Assembly (NCBI GenBank): GCA_025059715.1
Contig: JANXCE010000014.1
Location: 1-47,944, forward strand
Direction: 5' to 3'
Origin: Caldimicrobium sp.
GTDB lineage: Bacteria; Desulfobacterota; Thermodesulfobacteria; Thermodesulfobacteriales; Thermodesulfobacteriaceae
DNA: 47,944 bases
Both the position numbers and the translations under genes were made by a program. The notes under the pieces were generated by a model that worked only from the letters and a program-made list of their open reading frames with translations, was not told where the DNA came from and did not search any database. This document shows, in pieces, positions 753 through 34,515 of the stretch (position 1 is the stretch's first letter; every line of letters starts with the position of its first letter).

Positions 753-1421
753 TTAGTTTAATATTACGGAGAGGGGAGTTATGAGATAGTTAGGATCATA
801 GAGTATTTTGGCTTCACATTTTATAAAAGTTTCAAATGAGTTAGCTAGGGCCAGAAAAAAGGCATTTTCAGTATTATTTTTAATGCTCTGAATAAATTGT
901 AAACAAAAATTGTACAAATACCTATTAAAGAAGAATTTTTGTTTTTTAAAAAATTGATTGATTAATTCTTCATTGCCTGCAATTTGAACGTCCATTTCTT
1001 TTAAGGCTAAGTATCCCATGAATTCAAGTTCGGGGACTATGTGATCGGGAGGATGGGGCCAATTATCGTCAACTTGTAAGCCCTCTCTTTGATAAAAATT
1101 TTTTACTTCTATAGTAGTTTTTCCCATAATTTGACGATCTTCTAAATAGACAGATCCATAAGGAGGAGCGGGGACCTCTAAGCTGGTCCCCAAAAATAGA
1201 CGAGTATATTCAATTTGAAGCTCCTCCTCATCAAACTCTTCAAAAGCGAACTTTAAAGTTTTAACTTGTTCGTAAAGAGTATAATCATACTCCATTGCGC
1301 ATTCTAAGAAATCTTGCCAAACTAAGGGATCACCGTGCACCTCCTTTTCAGGTAAACAAAAAAAGGCTGAAAAATATCTATAAAGTTTACCTCTCAACAG
1401 TCCCCTTGACCTCTCCTCCAT
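753..1421 (-). CDS. TorD/DmsD-family redox enzyme maturation chaperone
   Basis: This is a 222-residue all-helical protein of the TorD family. Such cytoplasmic chaperones bind the Tat signal of a molybdoenzyme and hold it for cofactor insertion. The family signature is visible around residues 120-135 (PPDHIVPELEFM), and the length is typical. It is the last gene of the minus-strand run, 13 bases after the ferredoxin-like subunit, which fits a dedicated chaperone for the Tat-exported molybdopterin oxidoreductase two genes upstream. The ATG at 1421 has no good Shine-Dalgarno; a TTG eight codons in, preceded by AAGGGG, is an alternative start. The role is known for the family; the pairing with this enzyme is inferred from position. 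Confidence 0.85.
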   Translation of the reverse strand: MEERSRGLLRGKLYRYFSAFFCLPEKEVHGDPLVWQDFLECAMEYDYTLYEQVKTLKFAFEEFDEEELQIEYTRLFLGTSLEVPAPPYGSVYLEDRQIMGKTTIEVKNFYQREGLQVDDNWPHPPDHIVPELEFMGYLALKEMDVQIAGNEELINQFFKKQKFFFNRYLYNFCLQFIQSIKNNTENAFFLALANSFETFIKCEAKILYDPNYLITPLSVILN

Positions 1422-1434: not shown

Positions 1435-2316
1435 TTATCCCTTTACACTATAACTTCTAATATAATACACATTTGGTTTTGTGCTTTTTTCAATTTCCGT
1501 CTCTTTCAGCCATTCTCCTTTGTTGTTTTTCAATCTCATAGGTTTATACTTTGCAAGTAGTTTAGCAACTTCACTGTTGGGATCATTTTTATCACCAAAA
1601 ACTCTGGCTCCAGCGGGACAAGATACTACACAGTAGGGCAATTCACCCCTCCTTACTCTGTGGATACAAAAATGACACTTTTCAATCCATTCCGGCTCTC
1701 TGATGATACTGGTTTCACCTCTTCCCATAGTTCGCATTCCAGGCTGTTTATGATAATCTCCTACCGGGCGATCGTCCCTAAAGGTATACTCATGTCTATA
1801 TGGTGGAAAAACCCCCACTCTTTTTGATAACTCTTCGGGAGAAGCTGTAGCTCCTGGATAATAATCACTCTTTTCTGCCCACTCAGGGTGAGCCCGAGCT
1901 CCCACTCGATTAAAACTTATCACTGAATAGGCAGTTCCCGCTTTGGCCGGATTTTCTGAGGAGTAAGGACACTTATTCTTTTCGTCAATTAAACACTTTC
2001 TACACTTTTCTCCTAAACAATATCTTCTATTATACATAACAATACCTTCTTCCGTCTTGTATAATGCCTTCGGTTCTGGACAGGCCTTAATGCAGTTGGG
2101 ATCCTCACAGTGATTGCATAGAACTGGCACAACTGTATACTTTACATTGGGAAACTTTCCCTCCATAGTTATCACGTAGTCCGCCCAGTTAAAAGGACTT
2201 CCATCTCTTGCAGGAGATTGAGTATTGTTCATAGTTTTACAGGCAATAGCACAGGCCCCACACCCAGTGCATTTTAGTAAATCTATAACCATAGCCATTT
2301 GTTTTGGTTTACTCAT
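1435..2316 (-). CDS. 4x[4Fe-4S] electron-transfer subunit of molybdopterin oxidoreductase
   Basis: This is a DmsB/PhsB/ArrB-like ferredoxin subunit. It carries four cysteine clusters: CTGCGACAIAC near the N terminus, LCNHCEDPNCIKACP, an atypical group CLGEKCRKC..CP, and CHFCIHR..CVVSCP. Its job would be to pass electrons between the catalytic Mo subunit and a cytochrome or quinone partner. A GTG three codons upstream (2325) lies inside the Shine-Dalgarno AGGAGGTG, so the ATG at 2316, eight bases after AGGAGG, is the better start. At 293 residues it is longer than typical ArrB or PsrB; the extra length is an insert of roughly 60-70 residues between the third and fourth clusters. It has no signal peptide, as expected for a subunit carried through Tat by its partner. 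Confidence 0.87.
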   Translation of the reverse strand: MSKPKQMAMVIDLLKCTGCGACAIACKTMNNTQSPARDGSPFNWADYVITMEGKFPNVKYTVVPVLCNHCEDPNCIKACPEPKALYKTEEGIVMYNRRYCLGEKCRKCLIDEKNKCPYSSENPAKAGTAYSVISFNRVGARAHPEWAEKSDYYPGATASPEELSKRVGVFPPYRHEYTFRDDRPVGDYHKQPGMRTMGRGETSIIREPEWIEKCHFCIHRVRRGELPYCVVSCPAGARVFGDKNDPNSEVAKLLAKYKPMRLKNNKGEWLKETEIEKSTKPNVYYIRSYSVKG

Positions 2317-2356
2317 AATTGTCACCTCCTATGGAAATTTTTAATTATTAAAATCT

Positions 2357-4888
2357 TTATACTTTTTCAATTTTGACCCCAACGAAACCACCATTTCTGG
2401 CTGTGCTACCACTTAAGTAGTCGTAATCATCGGGCATCAACTCATTGAAGTTAACTCCCCTAGGAAGGTATTTTTTGGGGTCGCTTACCGCAAGCCTTCC
2501 ATAAGCCCAATGCCCTTGTCCAAAAGTCTTCACAACACAGCCTGGCCGAACTCCTTCCCACAAACGAACTTTAATTATGGCACTACCTTTAATAGTTGTT
2601 ACTTTTACTCTATCACCGTCTTTAATGCCAAGACGAGCCGCATCCGCGGGATTCATCTGAAGCACATCCTCCATTGATAAATCTCCAGGATCACATTTTT
2701 TAAAGATGTAATACCAGGAAATATTGGCAGATCTTCCTTCTTGATTAAACCTGCTCTTATAATCTATTAAGTCAAAGGGATACTCCTTTCTATCGCCGTG
2801 TCTTCTTGGAGCTTCATAATGGGGTATAAAGGCTTTCTCACCGCGGGCATCATATCCTGTGACTTCCATTACCTTATCTACGGTGACTTTATGTCTCTCT
2901 GCATGAGCGGTAAGCGCTCTCTTCAAAGTCTCACTGTAAAATTCAAACTTTTTCGTAGCTGTGGGGAAGCCGTCTGTCCAGAACCTTCTAAAGGTATAGC
3001 GTGGTGAATTCACAACGCCTCGTTTCACAAAGTCCTCCCAACCTTGGGGTCTATCACCCTTGTAATCTTTATTCAAGTTGGGATCCCAGATCTTATGAGT
3101 TACTCTTTTTACCGCAAAGAGGGCAAACTCTTCAGGTGTAGTAGGAGACTTTCCAGTCTCAGGATCCTTAAATTCATTGACATAATAGTCATAAAGATTT
3201 GGAAAGCCCTTTTCCTTGAGCTTCATTGCAATCATAAAGGGAATTTCTGTTTCTGCTGCTTTAACATCGAAGACCCTTTTGATTACGGGTTGAATTATAG
3301 ATAAATGAGCATATCCATCGCCTTTGTTTGTGCTTATAGCCCACTCCTCAAAGGGAGTAAAGGTGGAAGGTAAAACAATATCTGCAAACTGAGCCATCTC
3401 AGAGAGATGCGTTCCTATATAGACAAAAAAGGGAACTTTTGCCATGGCTTTATCCCACCTACTTGTTTCAGTACAAGAGAAATTAAAATTGGCAAAATAG
3501 GCAATAGCTACTTTTATATCGTAAGGGTCATTGGTTAAAATAGCATTGGCTACATTATTTGTTGCTACTCCCCTTCCTGGAGTTCCCTCTGCTAAGTTAG
3601 GAAATTTTAAATAACCTCTTTGGTCAATTTTTTGTTTTTTAGACCCTTCCTTGGCAAGGTCATCTAAGTATTTGTCAATAGGTGGAAATTCCCCTCTTGG
3701 GGCACTTGCTCCTCGGAAAGTTCCCCCTGGGCTATCTACCGCCCCCACAAGTCCGTTTAAAGCCTCTATACAGAGTGCTACATAGGTTCCCTTTGGCATC
3801 ATGGTTGGTCCATTCCAGATGGCACAATTAGGAGCTGCCTTAGCAAAACCAATGGCAACTCTTCTAATTTGATCCCTTGGAATTCCGCAAATGGGCTCTG
3901 CCCATTCTGGAGTTCTATCTTTGAGCTCTAAATTCCACCACTTTACCAAGCCATGGGTCAATTTTTCATTGAACGTCGTTTCATCAACTGTTTGACCAGG
4001 TTTAAACCTATTAACTCCATCTTTGAAATCTCCTACAAACTCTTTGTTCCACAGGCCCTCTACCAGAATTACATGGGCCATAGCTAGGGCTAAAGCCGCG
4101 TCTTCCCCTGGTTTAACAGGTAACCACTCGTGGGCCTTTGCTGCTATGTTATCCATTCTTGGATTAACTGATACTACTGTCCCTTGCTCTAAAAGCCGTC
4201 CTAATCTGTTCATAGTTACTGGTACATTTCTATTGGAAGATACAGGATCACAACCCCATACAATTAAGTATTTCATCTGGTCTAAATCAAAGTCCGCATA
4301 CCCAAAGAAGCCCCAGGTATAATATCTTCCCATTTTTTCCACTTCGGCACAAATTGAACTATGGGAAATGTTATTTGGAGAACCAATTATTTTTACGAAG
4401 GCATCATATAACAGTGGGAACATACCAGTATATCTACCACGCATAAGAAGTAGTTTGTGAGGTTCCTTGTTCTTTCTTAATTCCATAATCTTGTCTGCAA
4501 TAGTATTTACCGCCTCATCCCAGGAAATTGGAACAAATTTTGGATCCACACCTCTTCCCTTCTGGGGATTCGTTCTTTTGAGAGGCACCTTCACCCTGTC
4601 AGGATCATAAGCTAATTGTAGATTGAGATGCCCACGGGGGCAGCAATAACCGCGATTAACTTTACTATGTTGATTTCCCCTAACTAAAGTTGCCCGACCT
4701 CTCTGGACAAACACCTCTAAAGGACACCACTGAGTACATCCTTTACAAGTGGTTGGCACCCAACTGCCAGCCTCTCTGGTCGCTGGAGTCTGAGCTTGAG
4801 CTAAGGTGTTGAATATGGAATTTGGCATCACCCCCAGGGCTCCCATCATGGCTGTTACTTTTAAAAAGTCTCTTCTTCTGAGCTTCAT
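2357..4888 (-). CDS. Tat-exported Mo-bisPGD oxidoreductase, ArrA/ArxA-like catalytic subunit
   Basis: This is a DMSO-reductase superfamily catalytic subunit of about 843 residues. Numbering from the upstream ATG at 4894, it has a twin-arginine signal (LRRRDFLK, 5-12) and an N-terminal [4Fe-4S] site C50-x2-C53-x3-C57-x27-C85. The likely Mo ligand is Cys182 in HSSICAEVEK. Around it R154, H178, K187 and Y199 have the same spacing as R165, H189, C193, K198 and Y210, which I recall as active-site residues of Shewanella ArrA (constant offset of 11). The segment RGRYT resembles ArrA rather than the GRGWG-type motif recalled for ArxA. The length also suits ArrA (about 850) better than TtrA. GGAGGG abuts the ATG at 4894 but stands six bases from the ATG at 4888, which is chosen. 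Polysulfide, thiosulfate or another oxyanion remains possible; the substrate is inferred, not shown. Confidence 0.85.
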   Translation of the reverse strand: MKLRRRDFLKVTAMMGALGVMPNSIFNTLAQAQTPATREAGSWVPTTCKGCTQWCPLEVFVQRGRATLVRGNQHSKVNRGYCCPRGHLNLQLAYDPDRVKVPLKRTNPQKGRGVDPKFVPISWDEAVNTIADKIMELRKNKEPHKLLLMRGRYTGMFPLLYDAFVKIIGSPNNISHSSICAEVEKMGRYYTWGFFGYADFDLDQMKYLIVWGCDPVSSNRNVPVTMNRLGRLLEQGTVVSVNPRMDNIAAKAHEWLPVKPGEDAALALAMAHVILVEGLWNKEFVGDFKDGVNRFKPGQTVDETTFNEKLTHGLVKWWNLELKDRTPEWAEPICGIPRDQIRRVAIGFAKAAPNCAIWNGPTMMPKGTYVALCIEALNGLVGAVDSPGGTFRGASAPRGEFPPIDKYLDDLAKEGSKKQKIDQRGYLKFPNLAEGTPGRGVATNNVANAILTNDPYDIKVAIAYFANFNFSCTETSRWDKAMAKVPFFVYIGTHLSEMAQFADIVLPSTFTPFEEWAISTNKGDGYAHLSIIQPVIKRVFDVKAAETEIPFMIAMKLKEKGFPNLYDYYVNEFKDPETGKSPTTPEEFALFAVKRVTHKIWDPNLNKDYKGDRPQGWEDFVKRGVVNSPRYTFRRFWTDGFPTATKKFEFYSETLKRALTAHAERHKVTVDKVMEVTGYDARGEKAFIPHYEAPRRHGDRKEYPFDLIDYKSRFNQEGRSANISWYYIFKKCDPGDLSMEDVLQMNPADAARLGIKDGDRVKVTTIKGSAIIKVRLWEGVRPGCVVKTFGQGHWAYGRLAVSDPKKYLPRGVNFNELMPDDYDYLSGSTARNGGFVGVKIEKV

Positions 4889-4953
4889 AGGCATCCCTCC
4901 ATTTAGTTTTTTAATTGTTTAATCATTTATAATAAATATTTATACTTTAAATT

Positions 4954-6534
4954 TTATTTTTGTGAAGAAACTAATTTTTCATACCTAACCAAAATTTCTT
5001 CCAATTCAATCATAGCATTATCTAAAAGCATGATTGCAAACTTTTTGTTATGGACACCACCTCCGCCCTCTACCACATTAATAAACTGCTTAGCTCTTCG
5101 GTATCTTCGCCAAACTTCTTCATGCTCCTTTGGAGGAATCTGTGGTTTTATCTTTTCCAAGATTTCCTTAACTTTAGCTTCTAAGAGCTTTACTTCTTTT
5201 AAACTACTTTCAATCTCTTCCTTCCATTTTTTCAGACTTTCAGGGGTTTTTTCCTCATGACAATCAATACAGCTCTTTTCGTCAAACACTCTAACCTTTC
5301 TGCCTAGTTTGTCGTGGCTTTCCTTGGTATGACAGGAGATGCAAAGGGTATTTACATCATGATGTTTTATGGGGAACTCCCCCTCAATTCCTTCAAGGCC
5401 CTTACCTCTCAGAAGAATAACCTGATATTGATGAGGATTAGGATGGCAGATTCTACAACTTTCTAAAGAGGCATCAATGTATGTAAAGTGTTTTAACTTC
5501 TTATGTTCAATAGGTTCATGACAATTAAAGCAACTTGCTGTCTGTTTGGCTACATGTTCTTTGTGCATCACCCTTTTGTTCTTAAAATCCTTCCAAAGGT
5601 CTTTGCTATTTTCATGACAATCCAAACACTTTTCCTTAGCCACCTCGCCTCTTCCTCTTACCTGATGAAGATGGCAATTGGCACAGTCAATTTTTCTATC
5701 CTTGTAGTCCTTATGAGTTAGGGGTCTCTCAGTTCCAGCGTCTCCTTCTTCCGCCTTTTTAAAGGGTTCTTCTGGAAGTCTATGACAGAGAGTACAATCT
5801 GCTCTACCTTTTGCAAAGCCAGTATCCTTTGAGGGAGTGTATTTAAAATGGCAAAGATAACAAGACTCTTTAGAAACTTCAAAGTGTTTTTTTTCTGTCT
5901 CTTTCCGATGACAAGTCACACAATGAAGTTCATGTCCCTCAACCCATTTCTTTTTATCATAGTGTTCCTTATGAGTAAAACCTATAGTTACTTTTTCTTT
6001 TCTTCCATCAAGAGTAGTTCTTTCATACTCCATGAATTTTAATTTCTTTGTCCAATAGGCCCCTTCTTTAGTGTGGGGTTTATCAGTAGGATGACACCTT
6101 GTACAACTGGAATCCGCAATGGGTGGTTTTCTCATGACTACCTTCTCATCCATATTTAGAATGGTTACAAGGCGAGTCATCACTTCAATTTCTGTTTTCA
6201 TGGCTTCAAATTCCCGAGAGGGAAGAGTTTTTCTCTTGGGGATGCGTCGGTGTTCAGGTATTAAAGGCATGTCCGGAGGATAATGACATTCCACACATCC
6301 AACGTCTTTGTGTTTTTCATCCTTTTTCCAAGTATTATGGGCTCTTTTGATTACCTCTGGATAGGTAAGGACATGACAATAACCACAAAAGAATATTGTT
6401 TTGCGTTGAGGTCTTTCTATCCCTATTCTTCTAATAGAAGGGTCTTTAGTTATTGTTATGCCCAGTATATCGCTAAAGAAAATCATTGATAATAAAGAAG
6501 AAATAATAAATATTCTTAAGACGGTTCTTTCCAT
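4954..6534 (-). CDS. Dodecaheme c-type cytochrome
   Basis: This is a 526-residue exported cytochrome with an N-terminal hydrophobic signal or anchor (residues about 6-26) and twelve CXXCH heme-binding motifs spread over residues 50-430. The C-terminal 90 residues lack hemes and form a charged, probably helical segment ending with GGGGVHNKKFA. I recall that Gly-rich/HN motif from the C-terminal helices of several multiheme reductases. The start has an excellent AGGAGG six bases upstream. It lies between the NrfD gene (12-base gap) and the molybdoenzyme gene (65-base gap), so it probably carries electrons between the membrane quinone module and the periplasmic Mo enzyme. Whether it has its own catalytic heme cannot be told from motifs alone. 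Confidence 0.87.
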   Translation of the reverse strand: MERTVLRIFIISSLLSMIFFSDILGITITKDPSIRRIGIERPQRKTIFFCGYCHVLTYPEVIKRAHNTWKKDEKHKDVGCVECHYPPDMPLIPEHRRIPKRKTLPSREFEAMKTEIEVMTRLVTILNMDEKVVMRKPPIADSSCTRCHPTDKPHTKEGAYWTKKLKFMEYERTTLDGRKEKVTIGFTHKEHYDKKKWVEGHELHCVTCHRKETEKKHFEVSKESCYLCHFKYTPSKDTGFAKGRADCTLCHRLPEEPFKKAEEGDAGTERPLTHKDYKDRKIDCANCHLHQVRGRGEVAKEKCLDCHENSKDLWKDFKNKRVMHKEHVAKQTASCFNCHEPIEHKKLKHFTYIDASLESCRICHPNPHQYQVILLRGKGLEGIEGEFPIKHHDVNTLCISCHTKESHDKLGRKVRVFDEKSCIDCHEEKTPESLKKWKEEIESSLKEVKLLEAKVKEILEKIKPQIPPKEHEEVWRRYRRAKQFINVVEGGGGVHNKKFAIMLLDNAMIELEEILVRYEKLVSSQK

Positions 6535-6546: not shown

Positions 6547-7809
6547 TTATGACTTATACTTATCAAGTATAGGAAGATATTTTAGCCCTAAACTAAGGCA
6601 AAATAAAAATCCTCCAAATAGCCCTAATATCAAAAAAATTTCAAAAATAGTAGGGAAAAAAGATGGAATAATTTCTAGAGGAGATTTTCCAAGTGGGTTA
6701 AATAGTGGATAAATCTGGCCTACAATGAGAAAATTATATCTTGCAAAAAAAATACCTAATAAAATAAAAAATGAGGCATACATTATTCCACTTAAGAGTT
6801 CCCTTCTTATTGAGTATAATAAAATTGTTATAGGAATTATATTTCCTAATAGAATTTCAAAGATCCAAAATGAGTATTTAAATGGGCCAGTTAAAAGTAT
6901 TTCAATAGTCATAATCTCTATGATATTATCTAATCCAAACCATAATTTTAAACTAACTAAGCACATATTAAGCCCAAGAAATAGTGTTAAGATTTGTGAC
7001 AATTCTAGGATCAGACATTTTAAACTATTTTCTATAACTATATTTAAAATTTTATGAATTAGTATAATTGTTCCTAAAAACCATGCTAACCCACTAAAGA
7101 AAGCTGAAATTAACATATAAGATGGATAAAATCCTCCATACCAAAAAAATCTACTTTCAGTATGGCCGAAAACAGCACCAAGAGTACTTGTGGCTGACAT
7201 TCCTGTAATTAGAGCTAAAACCCCGACAATTTTTGATATTTGATGTTCCGTTATAGAGGGTAAGTAAGTTATTAATTTATGCCATAATCCTTTTAAAGCC
7301 AACATTTCATAAAAACGTTTTTTAAAACCTCCCTTGGTTTCAGCTATTTTTAGTAAATCTTGTCTAATTAAACACCAGAATTCCACTAATAGAAAAATTA
7401 AATAGAAGGAGTATAATGTGCCCATCCACCAAATGGCTGATACTGGATTGGGGGTTAGAATATTGTATATTAATCTATCAGGCCTTCCTAAATGAAAACC
7501 TATAGAGATCATTCCAAATAATATGGTTAATATAGCTAAATAAAGACCGAATTTGGAAATTTGTTCATATTTTTTTATACCAAATATATGTCCTAAAGAA
7601 GTAATCATGCATAAGCCCGTTCCCGAAACAACAAAAAAAATATAGTTTGATACCATGAGTGCCCAAATTATTTTTAGAGAGAATTCAAATATTTCAGGAG
7701 TAAAAACAAGAGAAAGTATCAAAGAGTAGATACCAAGTAATATTATAAAGGATAATATTACTAACCATAATTGATAATGAATCTTGTTTGTAATTTTAAT
7801 TTTGATCAT
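6547..7809 (-). CDS. NrfD/PsrC-type integral membrane quinone-interacting subunit
   Basis: This hydrophobic protein of about 420 residues has roughly ten predicted transmembrane helices and matches the NrfD/PsrC family in length and layout. These subunits exchange electrons between menaquinone and a periplasmic iron-sulfur partner. The ATG at 7809 lies nine bases after AAAGG and overlaps the last 14 bases of the iron-sulfur gene upstream, which suggests translational coupling; an in-frame ATG at 7842 has no Shine-Dalgarno. The coding sequence is strikingly AT-rich with many ATA, TTA and AAT codons, more so than the cytochrome genes, though membrane composition explains part of this. With the preceding Fe-S protein it forms an NrfCD-like pair. 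Confidence 0.85.
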   Translation of the reverse strand: MIKIKITNKIHYQLWLVILSFIILLGIYSLILSLVFTPEIFEFSLKIIWALMVSNYIFFVVSGTGLCMITSLGHIFGIKKYEQISKFGLYLAILTILFGMISIGFHLGRPDRLIYNILTPNPVSAIWWMGTLYSFYLIFLLVEFWCLIRQDLLKIAETKGGFKKRFYEMLALKGLWHKLITYLPSITEHQISKIVGVLALITGMSATSTLGAVFGHTESRFFWYGGFYPSYMLISAFFSGLAWFLGTIILIHKILNIVIENSLKCLILELSQILTLFLGLNMCLVSLKLWFGLDNIIEIMTIEILLTGPFKYSFWIFEILLGNIIPITILLYSIRRELLSGIMYASFFILLGIFFARYNFLIVGQIYPLFNPLGKSPLEIIPSFFPTIFEIFLILGLFGGFLFCLSLGLKYLPILDKYKS

Positions 7810-8617
7810 GCTTAAAAACCTTTGAATATAAATAAAATACAATAAAAAAACTTAATCCTGTAAGGATTCCATAACTTGAAATTCGCAATTTGTCAAAAGA
7901 TTCATTTACTGTTTTAGGTGGAGCAACTACTAAACCAAAATTTTGAGGTGGTGAGGGTAAAAGAGTGAGGAAATTTGTTCCTCCAGCCTCAATTTCTCCA
8001 AGGAGATAATAGTCTTTTTTTTCTAAGAGGGGTTTTACTTTTGATAAAATTTCATTTCTTAGACCAAAATCGAGAGCAGAAACTGGGCAAGCTTCAACAC
8101 AGGCCGGTTTTAGACGGGGAATTCGATCATAACACAAAGTACACTTTCTACTAACTCTTTTTTCAAAGTCAAAGCGAGGAATTTTATATGGACATGATTG
8201 ATAACAGTATCTACACCCTATACATTTATTTTCATCAATAACTACAGCACCTGTTAAATATTGTTTGATGGCGGAAACAGGGCAGGCGCCCATACAGGCA
8301 GGTTTTTCACAGTGTTGACAGGCCCAGTGGATGTAAAATAGATTTTCTACATTCCTCTGATCTCTAATCAAATTCACTACAACCCAAGTATTTCCTGTTA
8401 AATCAGTTTCTCTATCGGTTAAGTCTTCGTTTCTGTCTAATTTTAATTTGTTCCATCTTTTGCAGGCAGACATACATCGTTTACAACCTATACATTTTGT
8501 TACATCATGGAATTTGATATATCGGTCTTTCTCTGCCCATACATTTGTATTATGAACAATAAAATTGATTAAACTTAATGAAGAAATTTTCAAAAATTTT
8601 CGTCTATCTATAATCAT
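7796..8617 (-). CDS. Tat-exported 4x[4Fe-4S] ferredoxin-like subunit (NrfC/PsrB type)
   Basis: This protein has a twin-arginine signal right at its N terminus (MIIDRRKFLKIS) if translation starts at 8617. An upstream in-frame start at 8695 would bury that signal and overlap the cytochrome gene by 71 bases, so 8617 is preferred; it follows the cytochrome stop by seven bases. Four cysteine clusters are visible: CIGCKRCMSAC, CQHCEKPACMGACP, CIGCRYCYQSCP and CTLCYDR..CVEACP. A C-terminal hydrophobic stretch just before the stop may act as a membrane anchor. It should sit on the outer face of the membrane and shuttle electrons between the NrfD-like subunit and the multiheme cytochromes. It is distinct from the second ferredoxin at 1435-2316, so the locus carries two such proteins. 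Confidence 0.87.
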   Translation of the reverse strand: MIIDRRKFLKISSLSLINFIVHNTNVWAEKDRYIKFHDVTKCIGCKRCMSACKRWNKLKLDRNEDLTDRETDLTGNTWVVVNLIRDQRNVENLFYIHWACQHCEKPACMGACPVSAIKQYLTGAVVIDENKCIGCRYCYQSCPYKIPRFDFEKRVSRKCTLCYDRIPRLKPACVEACPVSALDFGLRNEILSKVKPLLEKKDYYLLGEIEAGGTNFLTLLPSPPQNFGLVVAPPKTVNESFDKLRISSYGILTGLSFFIVFYLYSKVFKHDQN

Positions 8618-8624
8618 AAAATTT

Positions 8625-9875
8625 CTACCAGCCCCATCTTTCTGGTCTACGATGAGCACTAAAGGGTAAAGGCATGTCTCCCTTTTTTGCTGCATCTAAA
8701 AATTCAACTAGATCTAAGAGATTTGTTTTTTTATGATAATGGCATCCACTGCATGAATTAGGTTGTCTATCAAAGTTACCAGCACCAAATCTTATAGTTA
8801 ACTCAGGAGAAAGAAAATTAAAACTATGACTTCGTAACTCATAAGATCGCCCTTTAGTGATTTTAACTATTTTCGGCATGTGACACTCAATACAGCTTCC
8901 AAAGGTGTGAATCCTATGAACCATCCTATTTTCTGTTGTTTGATGACAACTTTTACATAGGTTGTCGCCTATTTGACGAGTTTGGGTAGGAGGCAATCCT
9001 ATTTGACCAACTTTTATTTTGGATTCATGAATGAAATGGCAGTTGGTGCAGGTTATTCCAGCTTGAGCATGGGCACTCATTAACCAGTCATTGTATTCCC
9101 CATAGGGAACCTTAGCTTCTCCACTGGGCCAGAAAGCCTGAGGATTGGTCTTTTGGTTATCAACTGAAAAATAATTGTAAAGGTTTCCTGCGCCTCTTAT
9201 GGAGAGATATTGTGAAGGATAGGGATGGCCTGCCTTGTCTTTACCAATACTATGGCAGGAACCACAGAGTTGAGCAGAAGCTAAAGGGGTAAGTCTGGCT
9301 GGATTAATTATAGTTGTTATTTCATAACCAGGCATGGCTTCTACATGATTGCTACCGGGGCCATGACAGGCTTCACAGCCAACTCCAGGCTCCTTAAATG
9401 TTTTCTTAGTCAAATCTACTCCCGTAGCATGACATCCCGCACATTCTTTAAACCAATCCTTTCTTTCCGCAACTTCCCAGGTGTTCTCCCAAATATTATA
9501 CTGAACAGGAAGTGTGTAATAAGTATCTCCTTCCTTTATAAGATATTGCTGTCTCCACTTAGAACCTAAGGCGTACTCAATAAGATCCTTTTTAAAGCCC
9601 TGCACCTGAGGATGGGAAAAATCTCCTAAGATAGCCATTGGATTTTCCTTTACATCTTGCATAATTTTGGCATGTAATGTAGCCTTCCATTCGAGATATT
9701 TCCTCTCATGGCATTTCTTACATTCCTGCGATCCTACATAGGTAGCTCCACTCATATTTTTGTATTTACCTGTTAAGGTCTTGTGTTTGGCTTTAAGTTT
9801 CCAGGTGGTAAAGATTATCAAACCTACACTTATCAGAATTAAAAAAATCATGATAAGTAAAAAAGACTTACGCAT
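8625..9875 (-). CDS. Octaheme c-type cytochrome (cytochrome c554-like)
   Basis: This is a 416-residue cytochrome with an N-terminal transmembrane anchor (about residues 5-24) and eight CXXCH motifs. The arrangement CAGCHATGVD followed by VGCEACHGPGSNH is characteristic of the cytochrome c554/multiheme family, where the extra histidines act as distal ligands. It is the first gene of the structural operon, preceded at 9948-9963 by a sigma-54 promoter and a Shine-Dalgarno AGGAGG. It probably takes electrons to or from the NrfCD-like module immediately downstream. A reductase function of its own (nitrogen or sulfur oxyanions) cannot be excluded, because octaheme reductases also have eight hemes; the CXXCK active-site motif of such enzymes was not seen. 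Confidence 0.85.
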   Translation of the reverse strand: MRKSFLLIMIFLILISVGLIIFTTWKLKAKHKTLTGKYKNMSGATYVGSQECKKCHERKYLEWKATLHAKIMQDVKENPMAILGDFSHPQVQGFKKDLIEYALGSKWRQQYLIKEGDTYYTLPVQYNIWENTWEVAERKDWFKECAGCHATGVDLTKKTFKEPGVGCEACHGPGSNHVEAMPGYEITTIINPARLTPLASAQLCGSCHSIGKDKAGHPYPSQYLSIRGAGNLYNYFSVDNQKTNPQAFWPSGEAKVPYGEYNDWLMSAHAQAGITCTNCHFIHESKIKVGQIGLPPTQTRQIGDNLCKSCHQTTENRMVHRIHTFGSCIECHMPKIVKITKGRSYELRSHSFNFLSPELTIRFGAGNFDRQPNSCSGCHYHKKTNLLDLVEFLDAAKKGDMPLPFSAHRRPERWGW

Positions 9876-9947: not shown

Positions 9948-9963
9948 TGCAAACTATATGCCA
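9948..9963 (-). promoter_or_regulatory. Sigma-54 (-24/-12) promoter of the respiratory operon
   Basis: The minus strand reads TGGCATATAGTTTGCA. The invariant GG and GC are exactly ten bases apart, as in the TGGCAC-N5-TTGCA consensus. Transcription would start near 9937, leaving a leader of about 60 bases before the cytochrome gene. The gene immediately upstream encodes a sigma-54-dependent activator, which supports the call. No clear paired activator-binding site was recognised in the remaining 80 bases. Confidence 0.8.
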
Positions 9964-10045: not shown

Positions 10046-11428
10046 TTAAATATATTTTTTAATATTATATTCTTTTATTTTTTTTCTTAGAGTAAGTCTA
10101 TTTATCCCCAAAAGAAAAGAAGCTTTAAGTTGATTGCCACCGGTTATTTCAAGGGCCCTTTGAATCATAATCTGCTCTATTTGTGAGAGGAGTGCATGAT
10201 AGGGAGAGTTTTGTCCGGATAGGAGGACACTATTAACAAGATCCTCTATGGTTTTAACATGAGAGAACTCCCTTTTTTCCTTGTCTAAGAAAAGTTCCTC
10301 CTTTGTTATATAAGATCCCTTACAGAGAATCACTGCCCTGCGAAGGACATTTTCAAGTTCCCTCACATTTCCTGGCCAGTTATAATTTAAAAGGACCTCT
10401 AATGCTTCCTTAGTTATACCCCTGATTTTTAAATCAGCTTCACTGGCGTATTTTTTAACAAAATACTCTACAAGCAGGGGGATATCTTCTCTTCTCTCTC
10501 TCAAAGGTGGTATTTTAATGTTTACCACATTTAAACGATGATAGAGATCCTTTCGGAAATTACCTCTTTTGGTCTCTTCGCTTAGATCCTTGTTTGTGGC
10601 GGCAATAATTCTCACCTCTACTTTAATAGGTGTATTTCCACCAAGTCTTTCAAAGGTTTTCTCTTGCAATACTCTTAAGATTTTAGCCTGGGTAAGGGGG
10701 CTCATGTCACCAATTTCATCTAAAAAAATAGTTCCACCCTGAGCTACTTCAAATTTGCCTAATTTTCTCTTTTCAGCAGAAGTAAATGCTCCTGGTTCAT
10801 AGCCAAAGAGTTCGCTTTCAACCAAACCTTCCGGCAAGGCAGCACAATTTACCACTACAAAGGGCTTGTTTCTGCGTTTGCTATTTTCGTGTATAGCCCT
10901 AGCAACCAATTCCTTTCCTACTCCTGATTCTCCTTCAATTAAGACAGGCACATCATGATCTGCTAGCTGACCAATAAGTTTGGAAATTTCAAGAATGGCC
11001 TGGCTTTTCCCAATGAGTCGTCTTATGGAGGAAACTTCTTGGAAATTGGAAAATTCTATAACCTCTTCTAAGTGACTTTCTTCTGCTCTTTTGATTATCT
11101 CTCTTATCTTCTGAATATCAAAGGGTTTGCTGACATAGTCAAAGGCTCCCTCTTTCATGGCTGAGGTTGCCGTTTCAGAGTCGGCAAAGGCTGTTATAAC
11201 TATAACCGGGACTTCGGGATTAAGCTCCTTTAATTTTTTTAAAACCTCCAATCCAGAAATATCAGGTAATTTAAGATCAAGCAGCACGACATGGGGTTTA
11301 TTTTTTTGAAAGCCCTCTATACCTTTCTTTCCGCTTTCGGCAGTGATTACTAAGTAATCCTTAGAAAAGGCCTTTTCAAAGGCATAAAGAACTGAAGGTT
11401 CATCATCAATTATTAAAAGTCTCTTCAT
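10046..11428 (-). CDS. NtrC-family sigma-54-dependent response regulator
   Basis: This 460-residue protein has three domains in order. A receiver (1-120) shows acidic residues D8/D9, phospho-acceptor D51 and K101. An AAA+ domain follows, with Walker A GESGVGK (166-172) and Walker B IFLDE (234-238). A C-terminal Fis-type helix-turn-helix occupies about 415-455. The sigma-54-contacting loop reads GAFTSA (213-218) instead of the usual GAFTGA. The start overlaps the kinase gene by 23 bases and has GGGAGG seven bases upstream. It should be phosphorylated by the adjacent kinase and activate the -24/-12 promoter of the cytochrome/molybdoenzyme operon that begins 170 bases downstream; this is inferred from adjacency. 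It matches the R of XSR sets such as aio/arx. Confidence 0.92.
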   Translation of the reverse strand: MKRLLIIDDEPSVLYAFEKAFSKDYLVITAESGKKGIEGFQKNKPHVVLLDLKLPDISGLEVLKKLKELNPEVPVIVITAFADSETATSAMKEGAFDYVSKPFDIQKIREIIKRAEESHLEEVIEFSNFQEVSSIRRLIGKSQAILEISKLIGQLADHDVPVLIEGESGVGKELVARAIHENSKRRNKPFVVVNCAALPEGLVESELFGYEPGAFTSAEKRKLGKFEVAQGGTIFLDEIGDMSPLTQAKILRVLQEKTFERLGGNTPIKVEVRIIAATNKDLSEETKRGNFRKDLYHRLNVVNIKIPPLRERREDIPLLVEYFVKKYASEADLKIRGITKEALEVLLNYNWPGNVRELENVLRRAVILCKGSYITKEELFLDKEKREFSHVKTIEDLVNSVLLSGQNSPYHALLSQIEQIMIQRALEITGGNQLKASFLLGINRLTLRKKIKEYNIKKYI

Positions 11429-12701
11429 AGGGAATCCTCCCTTCAGAAGGTAGGGTGATCTCTACAGTAGTTCCTTTATTCTCCTCAGATGTAATGTTAA
11501 TTTTTCCCTGATGTTCCTTTAGGATGTTGTATACGATGGCTAACCCCATTCCCGTTCCCTCTGGTTTTGTTGAAAAAAAGGGATCAAATATCTTTGATTG
11601 AATAGCTTTTGGTATGCCACTCCCATTATCTTTAATGTAAACCTTGACCTCCCTTTCTAATTTCCTAAGCTTGACCTCTATTTTTCCACTTCTTTCTTTG
11701 AAAGATTCATAGGCATTTAAGAGCAGGTTAAGAAAGACCTGTTTTAAGGCATCTGCATCTCCGGTAATCCAGGCTTTTCTCTCATCTAACTCTATTTTCA
11801 ATTCTATACCAGACAGTTTGAACTTGCTTTTACATAATGCAGCACATTCCTCTATAAGAGTATTTACTTCAACAGGTTTCCACTCTCTACGATTAACTCG
11901 GGAAAAGTTTAGGAAATCTGCCACCACTTTATCTATTCGATTAAGTTCCTTTTCCATAATCTGTAGATCCCTCTTTTCAAGGGGAGTATCTTCTTGGAGG
12001 CTCGTTTGCACCAGCATTTTTAGAGAAGTAAGAGGGTTTTTGATTTCATGAGCAAGCCCTGTCGCAAGTTGTCCCAAAGCTGATAGCTTTTCAGCTCTAA
12101 TAAGACGACTTTGGGCAGGATAGATTACTCTTTTTGTAATATAAGTAGCTATTAGTATACCCATTATTATTATAATTAAGAATATTTCTAAAACTTGATT
12201 TTTCAATTTTTCAAAACTATCTCTCCAGGTTTTATAACTTACGCCCAAACGCAGGTAACCAATTATACCAAAATTTTTAGCTACAACAGGGGCTATTATT
12301 TCGTAATGCTCGGTGTAATTTTTGAATTGGAGTTCCCTTGTGTTTCTTAAAATTTCAGGGTTTAGTGGCTGGGGAGCCAGATCTTTTATTAGGGTTAGAA
12401 AAAGTTCTCCTTCTGGGGAGTAGACCTCGCTAAAAAGAAGAAAATTGGGCTCTGCAGTAAAGGCTGCCTCGATGATTCTATAAGCAGAGAGTCTCTCCTC
12501 ATATAGTAATGGCTCTATTAGTTGTTCTGAGAGCATTTTGGTTAAATATAGACCCTTTTTCTGAAGTTCCTTTTCAAAAAAATATCGGCTCTCTCTAAAT
12601 ACGATCCAGCTTATAAGAAAAGAGGTAAGTATTATTATCAAGATTATTGAGAGCGAGAGCTTAAAGGTGAGATTATTCCACAAATTTTGAAATTTCATCA
12701 T
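11406..12701 (-). CDS. Membrane sensor histidine kinase
   Basis: This 431-residue kinase has two transmembrane helices (about 14-35 and 170-189) framing a periplasmic domain of about 130 residues. A short linker leads to the dimerisation domain with H218 in LAHEIKNP, then a HATPase_c domain (N box LNLLLNAYES, G1 DNGSGIP, F box DPFFST, G2 GTGMGLA). The start overlaps the stop of the binding-protein gene (ATGA), so the two are translationally coupled. By analogy with AioXSR and ArxXSR it would read the ligand state of the periplasmic binding protein and phosphorylate the sigma-54 activator encoded next. The ligand is not evident from the sequence. Confidence 0.9.
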   Translation of the reverse strand: MMKFQNLWNNLTFKLSLSIILIIILTSFLISWIVFRESRYFFEKELQKKGLYLTKMLSEQLIEPLLYEERLSAYRIIEAAFTAEPNFLLFSEVYSPEGELFLTLIKDLAPQPLNPEILRNTRELQFKNYTEHYEIIAPVVAKNFGIIGYLRLGVSYKTWRDSFEKLKNQVLEIFLIIIIMGILIATYITKRVIYPAQSRLIRAEKLSALGQLATGLAHEIKNPLTSLKMLVQTSLQEDTPLEKRDLQIMEKELNRIDKVVADFLNFSRVNRREWKPVEVNTLIEECAALCKSKFKLSGIELKIELDERKAWITGDADALKQVFLNLLLNAYESFKERSGKIEVKLRKLEREVKVYIKDNGSGIPKAIQSKIFDPFFSTKPEGTGMGLAIVYNILKEHQGKINITSEENKGTTVEITLPSEGRIPYEETFNN

Positions 12702-13531
12702 TCAGCCTTATTAATAACCTCCCAAGCTGTTCTATATAAGGAATGATCAGGAGGGTCAAAACGATCAATACCTATCTTTTTCAAGACCTCCTTTCCCTCT
12801 GGATCTTTATGCATGTTTAGTAGTAGCCTAAGTAACCTTATTTTATCCCTTTGGGATAAACTTGCAGAAACCACGAAGGGAGGCATACCAAATTCCTGTG
12901 ACTTGTAGATGACTTTTACCCTCTTGGCATAGGGATTATCATATTCCATCATTTCCTCATAGACAAGACCGTCAATGGTTGCCCCTTGAGCCAAACCTAA
13001 GGCCACGGCCTCAATGGACTTTTCGTGACTTCCCGTGAAAAAAAATTTTTTAAAGTATTCTTCAGGTTTTTGAGCCCTTTGTTTTAGATAGGCTTTAATA
13101 AAAAGATGTCCTGTGAGGGAGAGAGGATCAGTAAATGCAAATACCGTCCCCTTAAGGTCTTCAATTGACCTATAAGAGGCTTTTTGATGAGTTATTATAT
13201 ATGCCCTGTAGGTTTTTTTGCCCTTAATTACAGGAATGGCTAAAAGTTCTATATTAAACTCCTTTCTTCCCATTAAGTATCCGCCAGTGCATAAATGGGC
13301 AAAATGAGCTTTACCCTCCTTCAGAAGCTCATTAACCGCTTTGTATGTTTTCTTTTGTTTTAATTTAATCCTTTTTCCTAATCTCTTCTCTAAATAATCT
13401 ACAAGAGGGTGAAATTTCGTTAGAGTGCTAATAGGTGAGGTCATAGGAGAAATTAGAAAAATTAATTCCTCTTTTGCCTCTGCAGTGGCCAAGAAGGATA
13501 ATAGGAACAAACTTAAAAATATACCTCTCAT
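12698..13531 (-). CDS. PhnD-like periplasmic oxyanion-binding protein (X of an XSR sensor set)
   Basis: This is a secreted protein of about 277 residues with a cleavable signal peptide ending near ATAEA. It belongs to the PhnD-like phosphate/phosphonate/phosphite-binding family: ISPMTSP near the N terminus, FHPLVDYLEKRLGK, a central DLKGTVFAFTDP hinge segment, and conserved spacing to the C-terminal half. No ABC permease or ATPase lies nearby; it is followed directly by a kinase and a sigma-54 regulator, so a sensing role is more likely than uptake. Homologues AioX and ArrX/ArxX bind arsenite or arsenate. ATG 13531 is used; a GTG at 13540 is also in frame. Neither has a Shine-Dalgarno, and the promoter lies so close that the mRNA may be nearly leaderless. 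Confidence 0.82.
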   Translation of the reverse strand: MRGIFLSLFLLSFLATAEAKEELIFLISPMTSPISTLTKFHPLVDYLEKRLGKRIKLKQKKTYKAVNELLKEGKAHFAHLCTGGYLMGRKEFNIELLAIPVIKGKKTYRAYIITHQKASYRSIEDLKGTVFAFTDPLSLTGHLFIKAYLKQRAQKPEEYFKKFFFTGSHEKSIEAVALGLAQGATIDGLVYEEMMEYDNPYAKRVKVIYKSQEFGMPPFVVSASLSQRDKIRLLRLLLNMHKDPEGKEVLKKIGIDRFDPPDHSLYRTAWEVINKAE

Positions 13532-13547
13532 GAAGAGCACTTTTTTT

Positions 13548-16384: not shown

Positions 16385-16726
16385 CTAAGTTTTTAGAAAC
16401 ATTTTATGGAAAAATATAAAAATAAGTAAAACATAAAAAAATAGAAGGAATTTTGTAAGAGGAGTTCTTTTTGGTGTAGTTAGCTCAAACTCTAAAAATA
16501 AAATTCTTAATCCAGTTAAAATATGCATTAGTGTTATAGAAACTAAAATAAATTCACTAAATTTAATAAAAAGGGAGTTTTTTAGTAAAAATAGTTTAGT
16601 ATTTTCTGCATTTTTTTTTAGAAAATTTAGCATTAAAATGTGTATTATCAAAAAGAGAAAAATTATAATACCAGAGATTCTATTCACTAACCAGAAAATA
16701 TAGTCTATACCACCCTTGTAGTTCAT
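16385..16726 (-). CDS. sdhC: Succinate dehydrogenase/fumarate reductase cytochrome b subunit (SdhC-like)
   Basis: This 113-residue membrane protein has three helices. NRISGIIIFLFLIIHIL in the first helix and MHILTGLRIL in the second match the Sdh cytochrome b pattern (conserved Arg-x-Ser/Thr-Gly, then a histidine). It overlaps the end of sdhB by four bases (ATGA), a sign of coupled translation. It pairs with the SdhD-like anchor that follows. Both anchors are short compared with the single-polypeptide anchors of epsilonproteobacterial fumarate reductases. Confidence 0.75.
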   Translation of the reverse strand: MNYKGGIDYIFWLVNRISGIIIFLFLIIHILMLNFLKKNAENTKLFLLKNSLFIKFSEFILVSITLMHILTGLRILFLEFELTTPKRTPLTKFLLFFYVLLIFIFFHKMFLKT

Positions 16727-17451
16727 ATCTTAAGGGATCTTCTTAGAGCCTTTTTTACAGCTAATTTTTTGAGTTTAATTATGTGTTGAGGGATATTAAT
16801 TTCCTTTGGACATGCCTTAAGACAGTTCAGAGCAGAATGGCAGTGGAAGATCCCCATTTGTTCTACTACACTTATTAGTCTATCCGCTTGAGCAGTATCT
16901 CGGGTGTCAAAGATAAAACGGTAGGCTTTTAGTAAAGCGGAGGGGCCAAGAAAATTTTCGTTTATCCAAAAAGTTGGGCATGCGGTGGTGCAACATCCAC
17001 ATAGAATGCAGGTAATAGCTTCCAATATTCTTTCTTGATCTTCAGGTTTTTGTAAGCGTTCTCGCTCTGGTAGATTTTCTGTGTTAATGAGGTAGGGAAG
17101 AATCTTCTCATGTTTTTCAAAAAAGGGGGTCATATCCACAACTAAATCTTTTATTACGGGAAGCTTAGGTAAGGGTTCAATCTTGATAATCTCTGGAAGA
17201 TCTTTTACTAAGGTTTGACAGGCAAGCCTGTTAATGTCGTTGATTTTCATTGCACAGGAGCCACAAATACCGTGAGCACAGGATTTTCGAAAACCTAAAC
17301 TGGAATCCAGGTAGTCCTGGATTTTAATTAGTCCGTCAAGAACCCTTTCCCAGGAGGAAAGAGTGAGCTCATAGGTTTGCCAAAAAGGCTCCGATGATAT
17401 CTCGGGCAAAAACCTTTTTATATGAAAGATGTAGCGTCTCTCTTGAGCCAT
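16723..17451 (-). CDS. sdhB: Succinate dehydrogenase/fumarate reductase iron-sulfur subunit
   Basis: This 242-residue iron-sulfur subunit has the three centres expected: a [2Fe-2S] site at CAHGICGSC with the distal LAC, a [4Fe-4S] site at CILCGCCTTACP, and a [3Fe-4S] site formed by CHSALNC with LKACPKEI. It transfers electrons between the flavin of SdhA and the membrane quinone site. The ATG follows the sdhA stop directly. Length and motif order are standard for the family. Confidence 0.92.
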   Translation of the reverse strand: MAQERRYIFHIKRFLPEISSEPFWQTYELTLSSWERVLDGLIKIQDYLDSSLGFRKSCAHGICGSCAMKINDINRLACQTLVKDLPEIIKIEPLPKLPVIKDLVVDMTPFFEKHEKILPYLINTENLPERERLQKPEDQERILEAITCILCGCCTTACPTFWINENFLGPSALLKAYRFIFDTRDTAQADRLISVVEQMGIFHCHSALNCLKACPKEINIPQHIIKLKKLAVKKALRRSLKI

Positions 17452-19185
17452 TCAAAAAATCCTCTCCGTAGGTTGAAATTTGGTGATAACCACTGGTTTA
17501 AATTTAAATTCTACGCCTTGAGGTGTTTTAAAAATAAAGGTATGTTTTAGCCAATTTTGATCGTCTCTATAGGGGAAATCCTCTCTGTAATGGGCTCCTC
17601 TACTTTCCTCTCTAACTAAGGCGGACCTAACTAAGGCCTCTGCTAAATTAAACATATGATAAAGTTCAAAGGCTTGAAGCCTTTCCTGATTGAACACAGT
17701 GCCTTTGTCCTTTAGCTCAACTTTCCGAAATCTCTCTCGAAGGTTATTAATTTCCTCTAAAGCTTCCTCAAGAGACCTCTTAGTTCTGAATACAGAGGCT
17801 TTGTCCATGAGAGTTCTTTGCAAACGCTCCCTTAAAGGGGCAACTCTCTCTGCTCCTTTGTTAGAGTTTAAAAATTCAATAAAGCCTTTGACTTTCTCTA
17901 TCCGATAAGATGGGATCTTTCCCCTTAAGAAATTTTTGAAATTCTTAGCTACATCTAAACCTGCCTCTTTTCCGAAAACTAAGGTATCAAGAAGAGAGTT
18001 ACATCCTAAACGATTAGCTCCGTGAACGGAGACACAGGCACACTCTCCTGCAGCATATAAACCAGCCACATAACTTCCATTGGTGTCTCTCAAAACCCTT
18101 CCTTTTATATCAGTGGGGATGCCTCCCATGGCATAGTGAGCAGTTGGCACAACAGGGATAGGCTCTTTAGCTGGATCAATCCCTAAGTAGGTCTTGCAAA
18201 AGGAACTAATTTCTGGCAAGCGTTTCTCAAGGATCTTGGGATCAAGATGGGTTAGGTCTAAGTAAACATATTCTTTACCTTTTATACCTCTTCCTTCTTT
18301 TATTTCGGTCAGGATGGCTCTTGAGATGACATCTCTTGGAGCAAGATCCTTAAGGGTAGGGGCATATTTTTCCATAAATCGCTCGCCTCTTCCATTTATT
18401 AAGATACCTCCCTCTCCGCGAGCACCTTCAGTGATAAGAATTCCTAAACCATAAAGACCAGTAGGGTGGAACTGGAAAAACTCCATATCCTCAAGGGGTA
18501 TGCCCTGTTCAAAGAGAATGCTGAGACATTCCCCAGTGGTAGCAAAGGCGTTGGAGGTAACCTTAAAAATTTTGCCAAAACCACCTGAGGCCACAATTAT
18601 TGCCTTAGTTTCAAAGAGATGAAGAATACCTCTCTTGATTTCAAGGGCAATAACGCCCTGGGCTATCCCATCTTCTATAACTATGTCAAGCACTTGAAAT
18701 TCTTCAAAGAATTTTACCTGATTTTTTAAGGCTTGCTCATACAGAGCATGAAGAACCGCATGACCAGTGCGATCCGCAGAATAACAGGCCCTTCTTACAG
18801 GTTCCTTGCCAAAATATTTAGTGTGTCCCCCAAATCTTCTTTGGGCAATTTTACCATCAGCGGTTCGGGAAAAGGGAACTCCCAAGTGTTCCAGTTCTAT
18901 GACTATAGGTATGGCCGAGTAACACATAAATTCAATGGCATCTTGGTCACCGAGGAAATCACTTCCCTTAACGGTGTCAAAAAAGTGCCACTCAGGATCG
19001 TCCTCTTCTTCATTACCCAGAGCCGCACCAATACCACCTTGAGCTGCAGTAGAATGAGACCGAGTGGGATATAACTTAGTTAAAATTACAACAGATCCTA
19101 CTTTTACGGCTTCAAGACTTGCCCTTAAACCCGCAAGCCCAGAACCTATGATTACGGTGTCATACTGATGTTTCACAATCTCCAT
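17452..19185 (-). CDS. sdhA: Succinate dehydrogenase/fumarate reductase flavoprotein subunit
   Basis: This is the catalytic flavoprotein (577 residues) with an N-terminal FAD-binding GSGLAGLRA motif, the covalent FAD histidine in RSHSTAAQGGIGA, and the C-terminal HGANRLGCNSLLDTLVFG segment. It interconverts succinate and fumarate. The ATG at 19185 (MEIVKHQYDTVIIG) matches the usual N terminus; a TTG eight codons upstream (19209) is in frame with a weak AGG. It heads the sdhABCD operon, which diverges from the TRAP operon across a gap of about 140 bases. In a sulfur-metabolising anaerobe it could serve the oxidative TCA cycle or fumarate respiration. Confidence 0.93.
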   Translation of the reverse strand: MEIVKHQYDTVIIGSGLAGLRASLEAVKVGSVVILTKLYPTRSHSTAAQGGIGAALGNEEEDDPEWHFFDTVKGSDFLGDQDAIEFMCYSAIPIVIELEHLGVPFSRTADGKIAQRRFGGHTKYFGKEPVRRACYSADRTGHAVLHALYEQALKNQVKFFEEFQVLDIVIEDGIAQGVIALEIKRGILHLFETKAIIVASGGFGKIFKVTSNAFATTGECLSILFEQGIPLEDMEFFQFHPTGLYGLGILITEGARGEGGILINGRGERFMEKYAPTLKDLAPRDVISRAILTEIKEGRGIKGKEYVYLDLTHLDPKILEKRLPEISSFCKTYLGIDPAKEPIPVVPTAHYAMGGIPTDIKGRVLRDTNGSYVAGLYAAGECACVSVHGANRLGCNSLLDTLVFGKEAGLDVAKNFKNFLRGKIPSYRIEKVKGFIEFLNSNKGAERVAPLRERLQRTLMDKASVFRTKRSLEEALEEINNLRERFRKVELKDKGTVFNQERLQAFELYHMFNLAEALVRSALVREESRGAHYREDFPYRDDQNWLKHTFIFKTPQGVEFKFKPVVITKFQPTERIF

Positions 19186-19267
19186 TTGAGTATGGTCAGT
19201 ATATCCCAATAAAGTTTAACCTAAATGTTATGTTAGAAAAATCACAATGTCTTTTCTCTGGCAAAAA

Positions 19268-19296
19268 TTTACATACAATCTCTTTTTGGCTATAGT
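19268..19296 (+). promoter_or_regulatory. Sigma-70 promoter of the TRAP operon
   Basis: TTTACA (19268-19273) and TATAGT (19291-19296) are separated by exactly 17 bases, 30 bases before the first start codon, which has AGGAGG just upstream. No clear promoter was identified for the divergent sdhA in the same gap. Confidence 0.7.
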
Positions 19297-19325
19297 AGTG
19301 TTACCATTTAAAGTGAGGAGGTAAT

Positions 19326-20327: not shown

Positions 20328-20351
20328 AGAGACTTTCCGAAGGAGGTCACT

Positions 20352-20699
20352 ATGTTTGTCCACATCCTCTTATTGACGCTTTTTTTGTTTTATGGGATTG
20401 TTTGGGCTCAACCACAGGTGGTTGCAGAGCCCCCGTCTGGTAAACCTGAGGCTAAGCTAATCATAAAGGGTTTTGGATTTAAACCCGATGAGGAGATAGA
20501 CATTATTCTCAAGGTATCAGAGGAAGAGAAAATTGGATTGGGCACAACCAAAGTAGATGTGATAAAAGCAAACGCTCAGGGAAGTTGGGAGGCAGAAAGT
20601 GCCTTTCCTGTATTTCTTAAACCAGGTATATACGAAATCATCATCCAAGGTGATAAGGGCAGTCAAGGTAAACTTAAAATTGAGATTCTACCAAAGTAA
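20352..20699 (+). CDS. Small secreted beta-sandwich protein in TRAP operon
   Basis: This 115-residue protein has a signal peptide ending near GIVWA, then one predicted beta-rich domain. The pattern KLIIKGFGFKPDEEIDIIL ... WEAESAFPVFLKPGIYEIIIQG resembles IPT/Big-type immunoglobulin-like folds, where a functional or hydration domain presents a binding surface. It has a strong AGGAGG and sits between the TAXI binding protein and the fused permease, with its stop touching the permease start. A lipobox cysteine is absent, so it is probably free in the periplasm. I know of no assigned function; an accessory role in TRAP transport is inferred from position. Confidence 0.7.
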   Translation: MFVHILLLTLFLFYGIVWAQPQVVAEPPSGKPEAKLIIKGFGFKPDEEIDIILKVSEEEKIGLGTTKVDVIKANAQGSWEAESAFPVFLKPGIYEIIIQGDKGSQGKLKIEILPK

Positions 20700-30932: not shown

Positions 30933-30985
30933 GAACTATCATGTTAGCTAAACTTATGGCGAAATACACTTCCAAACAAGGAAAT

Positions 30986-31687: not shown

Positions 31688-31696
31688 TAAAGACTC

Positions 31697-32110: not shown

Positions 32111-32130
32111 AATACCACCCTTACTTAATT

Positions 32131-32652: not shown

Positions 32653-32684
32653 ATCCCCACCTCCCTCTAAAAAGTTTTCATAGT

Positions 32685-34418: not shown

Positions 34419-34504
34419 TTACCCCTCGCTTTTAAATAAAGAATGATTATTCCTACTAAAGCTAAGCTTGTAAATCCAATTGTGGCAATAATTGTCATAT
34501 CCAT
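34415..34504 (-). CDS. 29-residue single-helix microprotein in cbb3 operon
   Basis: This is a very short frame encoding MDMTIIATIGFTSLALVGII and ending LYLKARGK. It has a good Shine-Dalgarno (AGGAGG seven bases before the ATG at 34504), a single hydrophobic helix and a positively charged C-terminal end, and its stop overlaps the next start (ATGA). This supports real translation. It could be a second CcoQ-like or CcoM-like small subunit of the oxidase. No homologue is known to me. Confidence 0.6.
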   Translation of the reverse strand: MDMTIIATIGFTSLALVGIIILYLKARGK

Positions 34505-34515
34505 GGCTTATCCTC

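Follow-up and report, generated by a model that had tools for sequence, protein, structure and literature searches.

A probable respiratory arsenate reductase operon adjoining a multihaem cytochrome and NrfD-type module in a Caldimicrobium genome

Gene organization of the locus

The window, that is, the whole stretch of 47,944 nucleotides analysed here, opens one contig of a Caldimicrobium sp. genome of 1.84 Mb in 80 contigs. A run of seven genes is arranged, starting from the promoter, in the order 8-haem cytochrome, FeS protein, NrfD, 12-haem cytochrome, arrA, arrB and arrD (Table 1). Throughout the run, consecutive genes either overlap or are separated by at most 59 bp. In front of it, the 170-bp gap between the 8-haem gene and arrR contains TGGCATATAGTTTGCA, the only strict sigma-54 site within the window, where 0.1 are expected. 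The genes of an ArrX-ArrS-ArrR sensor system lie behind this site. At the contig edge, downstream of arrD, a frameshifted stretch (1-750) looks like what is left of a transposase or integrase gene.

The best NCBIfam match of arrB is the ArrB model NF041715, with a score below the cut-off of 450. Homologues of arrD adjoin arrB in most other arr loci, and a PHROGs scan of arrD gave no match.

Table 1. Features of the locus and of related loci. Positions refer to the window, except in the last four lines, where they refer to the locus named.
Feature	Position	Strand	Remarks
arrD, TorD/NarJ-type assembly chaperone	753..1421	minus	222 aa; PF02613 103 bits; TorD-family matches
arrB, four-cluster ferredoxin-like subunit	1435..2325	minus	296 aa; 16 cysteines; NF041715 ArrB 193 bits
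arrA, molybdopterin catalytic subunit	2357..4894	minus	845 aa from ATG; stop codon within range
H178-to-Y199 stretch of arrA	4298..4363	minus	H178, C182, K187, Y199 = ANA-3 H189, C193, K198, Y210
RGRYT motif of arrA, ArrA-type	4427..4441	minus	residues 152-156; R154 = ANA-3 R165
12-haem c-type cytochrome	4954..6534	minus	526 aa; N-terminal signal; 12 CXXCH
NrfD-type quinol-binding membrane subunit	6547..7842	minus	PF03916 109 bits; start probably ATG at 7809
NrfC/HmcB-type ferredoxin	7796..8695	minus	four [4Fe-4S] clusters; start probably ATG at 8617; Tat motif RRKFLK
8-haem c-type cytochrome	8625..9875	minus	416 aa; N-terminal membrane anchor; 8 CXXCH; cytochrome c554-type domain
Sigma-54 -24/-12 site TGGCATATAGTTTGCA	9948..9963	minus	72 bp before 8-haem gene
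arrR, sigma-54-dependent response regulator	10046..11428	minus	PF00158, PF00072
arrS, sensor histidine kinase	11406..12701	minus	PF00512, PF02518
arrX, periplasmic oxyanion-binding sensor, PhnD-like	12698..13540	minus	280 aa; GTG start as listed
cbb3-type oxidase, FixO	35062-35649
cbb3-type oxidase, COX1	35661-37061
Small 3-haem cytochrome gene, locus L007	9622-9978
Small 3-haem cytochrome gene, locus L020	9460-9978
Small 3-haem cytochrome gene, locus L021	9620-9979
Small 3-haem cytochrome gene, locus L029	9600-9986

Conserved residues of the catalytic subunit

The frame of arrA is intact. Its product carries a Tat signal (RRRDFLK), the [4Fe-4S] cysteines C50, C53, C57 and C85, and the molybdenum ligand C182; these cysteines, together with R7 and R8, do not vary across an alignment of 39 proteins, three ArxA included. 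The sequence-only reading had ended the frame at 4888, which is the third codon (M3) of the gene, and had rightly counted residues from M1 at 4894.

Window ArrA aligns over its full length with the Shewanella sp. ANA-3 enzyme (PDB chain 6cz7_A; 910 bits, 50.5% identity over 800 residues). In this alignment, R154, H178, C182, K187 and Y199 face R165, H189, C193, K198 and Y210, which we take to be active-site residues of the ANA-3 crystal structure. The offset is 11 at all five positions, exactly as the sequence-only reading had stated, and given the extent and score of the alignment this match in spacing is not due to chance. The same reading had called the set ArrA-like. All five residues are indeed present, but they are invariant across the 39-protein alignment, in the ArxA rows as well. 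Hence, the set marks the joint Arr/Arx lineage as opposed to other molybdoenzymes, and it was ruled out as proof of ArrA over ArxA.

The motif that precedes H178 is more telling. (R/K)GRY has been described as a mark of ArrA and XGRGWG as a mark of ArxA (PMC6549141), and R/KGRY is likewise taken as an ArrA mark in PMC11283718. At this site the ArxA rows of our alignment read GRGWG, whereas the window protein has RGRYT, which bears out the distinction made from the sequence alone. In addition, at 30 columns that separate ArrA from ArxA, the window protein is ArrA-type at 27, ArxA-type at none and neither at three. It also keeps 172 of 178 near-invariant ArrA columns; the six that are changed include the position of ANA-3 H506, occupied by Y492.

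Phylogeny and predicted structure

Relatives for the trees (ArrA-like, ArxA, Psr/Phs and TtrA-type proteins as well as uncharacterised ones) were gathered by genome searches. In a 69-row maximum-likelihood tree, the window protein falls in the ArrA clade together with 6cz7, and ArxA, Psr/Phs and TtrA lie outside. ArxA forms a separate clade with a support of 100. The single TtrA-type row is far from the window protein, and a Psr/Phs-type protein (L098) groups with Psr/Phs. Forcing the window protein to group with ArxA was rejected in a 29-row tree (AU test, p 7.8e-10). The rows nearest to window ArrA have 65-69% identity to it, and its terminal branch is long (0.5). Among plasmids, the named references gave a single match (31%).

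Against the NCBIfam ArrA model NF041714, the window protein scores 1044 bits, below the cut-off of 1600. With the same model, ANA-3 ArrA reaches 1706, a Geobacteraceae protein of the ArrA clade 1008 and an ArxA 435, and no match above the cut-off was found in about 980 sampled genomes. Since an ArrA-clade protein scores just 1008, the cut-off is narrow. We treated it as an annotation threshold that does not define ArrA; its use as a membership criterion was dropped after calibration on the ANA-3 and Geobacteraceae proteins.

An AlphaFold2 model of window ArrA (pLDDT 89, pTM 0.88) has ArrA 6cz7 as its best structural match, with Z 58.1 and 1.4 Å over 804 residues in a superposition of the overall fold. 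Polysulfide reductase comes next (Z 37.9, 2.6 Å). Phylogeny and superposition had both been proposed as checks on the sequence-only reading, and its view of the molybdoenzyme as ArrA-like is supported by the trees and, for the overall fold, by the model. Genes of the operon that this reading left unmentioned (arrB, the TorD-type chaperone, the ArrX-type sensor and the sigma-54 regulator) agree with it.

Two sets of relatives deserve mention on their own account. Four molybdoenzymes of about 800 aa (L005, L052, L054, L055) branch between Arr/Arx and Psr/Phs and mostly have GGRYRGH or GGRSRGH where ArrA has RGRY; their host genomes carry ArrA too, and L005, the only one of them aligned at the site, is without the ArrA His and Cys. 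A deep-branching protein with RGRYT (L094, genome G728) lies outside all other ArrA and has 42% identity to the window protein; it may represent an early form of ArrA or a reductase for some other oxyanion.

Sensor system and promoter

The ArrX of the window has its best PDB match in the ArrX of XSR sensors (6x6b), from which its sequence is otherwise clearly diverged. The ArrX chains score 174 bits as against 126 for AioX, and phosphite and phosphonate proteins are also lower. Its pocket, which would serve ligand binding as judged from sequence, comprises Y66, C84, Y111, S141, T143, H172 and D190. Six of the seven AioX pocket residues are identical, the exception being S163, replaced by Thr143. 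The AioX/ArrX pocket includes a cysteine that is absent from PhnD (PMC5908839); Cys84 corresponds to it. ArrX binds arsenate, and AioX and ArxX bind arsenite (PMC5908839). Because the window sensor is closest to ArrX, its sequence favours arsenate as the signal.

Of 23 arr-type operons, 7 are preceded by a sigma-54 site with at most one mismatch, compared with a background of 3.5%.

The electron-carrier module and other arr loci

The layout was compared with 50 other ArrA loci, 40 of which have at least 4 kb of upstream sequence. An ArrX-type gene occurs in 25 of the 50 and an NrfD gene in five, and neither the full cytochrome module nor a 12-haem homologue was found in any of them. In a single locus (L149), a gene near arrA is distantly related to that of the 8-haem cytochrome (93 bits). 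Four Geobacteraceae-type loci have a small 3-haem cytochrome gene directly before arrA; the presence of a cytochrome in an arr cluster is thus in itself nothing new.

The NrfD subunit is a possible orthologue of ArrC, the NrfD-type anchor of ArrABC. Within the run, its gene is split from arrA by the 12-haem gene. NrfD matches the NrfD genes of one arr and one arx locus with only 82 and 105 bits, and neither NrfD nor the 12-haem cytochrome has a PDB sequence match. The 12-haem cytochrome was not found in 60 sampled relatives, apart from distant partial matches; at E 1e-20 there is none in 6 relatives of the genus, 23 of the family and 11 of the order. The 8-haem cytochrome has relatives in the phylum at 39-47% identity. 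Away from Arr, relatives of this cytochrome have small 3- or 5-haem cytochromes as partners.

Both cytochromes occur together in a second organism (L135; 12-haem 449 bits, 8-haem 234 bits), with FeS and NrfD genes of its own that are not close to their window counterparts. That cluster adjoins a divergent XSR system, and a strict sigma-54 site is present there as well. The contig breaks off immediately behind the 12-haem gene; in the rest of the assembly (G082), the search for arrA detected no more than a 125-bit molybdoenzyme.

Compared with known systems, ANA-3 ArrAB resembles the window enzyme in fold, the five residues, RGRY, the Tat signal and the adjacent arrB. They differ in the electron supply: electrons reach ANA-3 Arr via CymA (PMC2500031), whereas the window run has the NrfD/FeS/multihaem module. 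Desulfobacterota and Geobacteraceae-type loci (L001, L036, L026, L007 and others) have the same arrA-arrB-chaperone order, X-S-R genes in many cases, and ArrA at 56-69% identity to that of the window; unlike the window, they contain at most the 3-haem gene or the 8-haem relative of L149. ArxA, the anaerobic arsenite oxidase, shares the five residues and a B subunit with the window molybdoenzyme but has about 33% identity to it. The combination of an NrfC-type FeS protein, NrfD and a multihaem cytochrome is also that of NrfCD, Hmc, Nhc and related quinol/cytochrome complexes. The window module gives weak NCBIfam matches to HmcC and DsrP (33-37 bits) and, unlike these complexes, shares a gene run with arrAB behind a sigma-54 site.

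Assignment of the locus and alternative readings

Placement in the ArrA clade, the diagnostic columns, the fold, the sensor and the promoter all speak for ArrA, as do the neighbouring arrB, chaperone and XSR genes; about half of the 50 other loci likewise have genes of XSR type close to arrA. We consider it highly probable that this operon encodes a respiratory arsenate reductase, and one of the ArrA type. We infer arsenate as the substrate, together with the direction of the reaction, its regulation and the order of the electron carriers, and the host may accordingly be predicted from its genes to respire arsenate. This reading is weakened by the score below the NF041714 cut-off, the long branch, the six column changes, the lack of detected Acr3 or ArsB, the absence of the module from the 50 loci and possible misbinning of the contig.

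A polysulfide, thiosulfate or tetrathionate reductase would belong to the same superfamily, and Psr/Phs-type homologues are common among the relatives of the host. Nevertheless, such an activity is extremely improbable: a PsrA/PhsA placement was ruled out by the tree and by the AU test (p 2e-42 in the 29-row tree), the match to Psr is 172 bits against 910 to ArrA, and the structural Z score of 37.9 compares with 58.1. Slightly more credit, although still very little, can be given to an enzyme that for the most part oxidizes arsenite, the reverse reaction, and passes electrons through the cytochromes to the cbb3-type oxidase encoded at 35062-37061. The cytochromes could conduct in either direction and the five active-site residues are common to ArxA, but the rejected ArxA grouping, the lack of any ArxA-type diagnostic column and a sensor of ArrX rather than AioX type all speak against it. 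Hardly more probable is an ArrA that has drifted to another oxyanion, such as antimonate or selenate, or whose function has weakened. The long terminal branch, the replacement of H506 by Tyr with five further changes at near-invariant columns, and the failure to find Acr3 and ArsB in the host genome would fit such a drift, and ArrAB has been cited as acting on antimonate (PMC11521347). Retention of all five pocket residues and of RGRY, the intact 845-aa frame and the ArrX-type sensor argue against it.

The assignment of the cytochrome/NrfD/FeS module is less firm than that of arrA. It could have a separate job, in another reductase or in extracellular electron transfer, with ArrAB fed by another quinol dehydrogenase and merely sharing the promoter. 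This is a serious competitor, although the less likely of the two: the full module is missing from all 50 loci, the 8-haem relatives have their partners elsewhere, and the L135 cluster combines unlike FeS and NrfD proteins with an assembly in which arrA was not found. Against it stand the tight spacing of the whole run behind one sigma-54 site, the vicinity of the same two cytochromes to an XSR system in L135, and the cytochrome genes directly before arrA in Geobacteraceae-type loci. On balance, we lean towards a cytochrome module that serves Arr.

Proposed mechanism and significance

In a respiratory arsenate reductase operon so fed, arsenate would be bound by ArrX in the periplasm, and the kinase ArrS would relay the signal to ArrR. 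As a sigma-54 activator, ArrR would then switch on a seven-gene transcript at the -24/-12 promoter. ArrA would be matured by ArrD ahead of Tat export. Quinol would be oxidized at the NrfD subunit. The NrfC-type FeS protein may then take over the electrons and the 8- and 12-haem cytochromes carry them on to ArrB, from which they would reach the Mo-bisPGD of ArrA, where arsenate would be reduced to arsenite.

The kind of enzyme is already well known, and window ArrA is an additional member, probably from a thermophile, and a candidate for a thermostable form. Apparently, the operon brings its own quinol-to-cytochrome chain, and this electron-supply module is unusual and possibly dedicated to Arr. 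We give about even chances to a new wiring of Arr to the quinone pool, in which a dedicated NrfC/NrfD quinol dehydrogenase feeds ArrAB through the 8- and 12-haem cytochromes, all switched on together as a single ArrR/sigma-54 unit, the host being a thermophile whose order shows no further ArrA in the genomes that were sampled. Canonical ArrA would be extended to this probably thermophilic lineage, with a bearing on arsenic release in hot springs.

Host genome and neighbouring genes

No ArrA was found in 40 sampled relatives of the host (6 of the genus, 23 of the family, 11 of the order), and a full-text search of part of the literature found no published report of arr genes in Thermodesulfobacteriales. 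The arr operon was possibly gained by transfer; it is also possible that the contig was misbinned, given a contamination estimate of 4.8% for the host genome. The arsenite exporters Acr3 and ArsB were not found in this arr-carrying genome (G000).

Elsewhere in the window, the cbb3-type oxidase genes lie in a region (28530-37061) together with heavy-metal P-type ATPase, DsbD-like and CcoG-like genes, and they point to an oxygen-reducing capacity in a probable anaerobe. Closer to the arr genes, at 16385-22637, fumarate reductase/succinate dehydrogenase genes are divergent from a TRAP-type transporter, which suggests dicarboxylate uptake and reduction.
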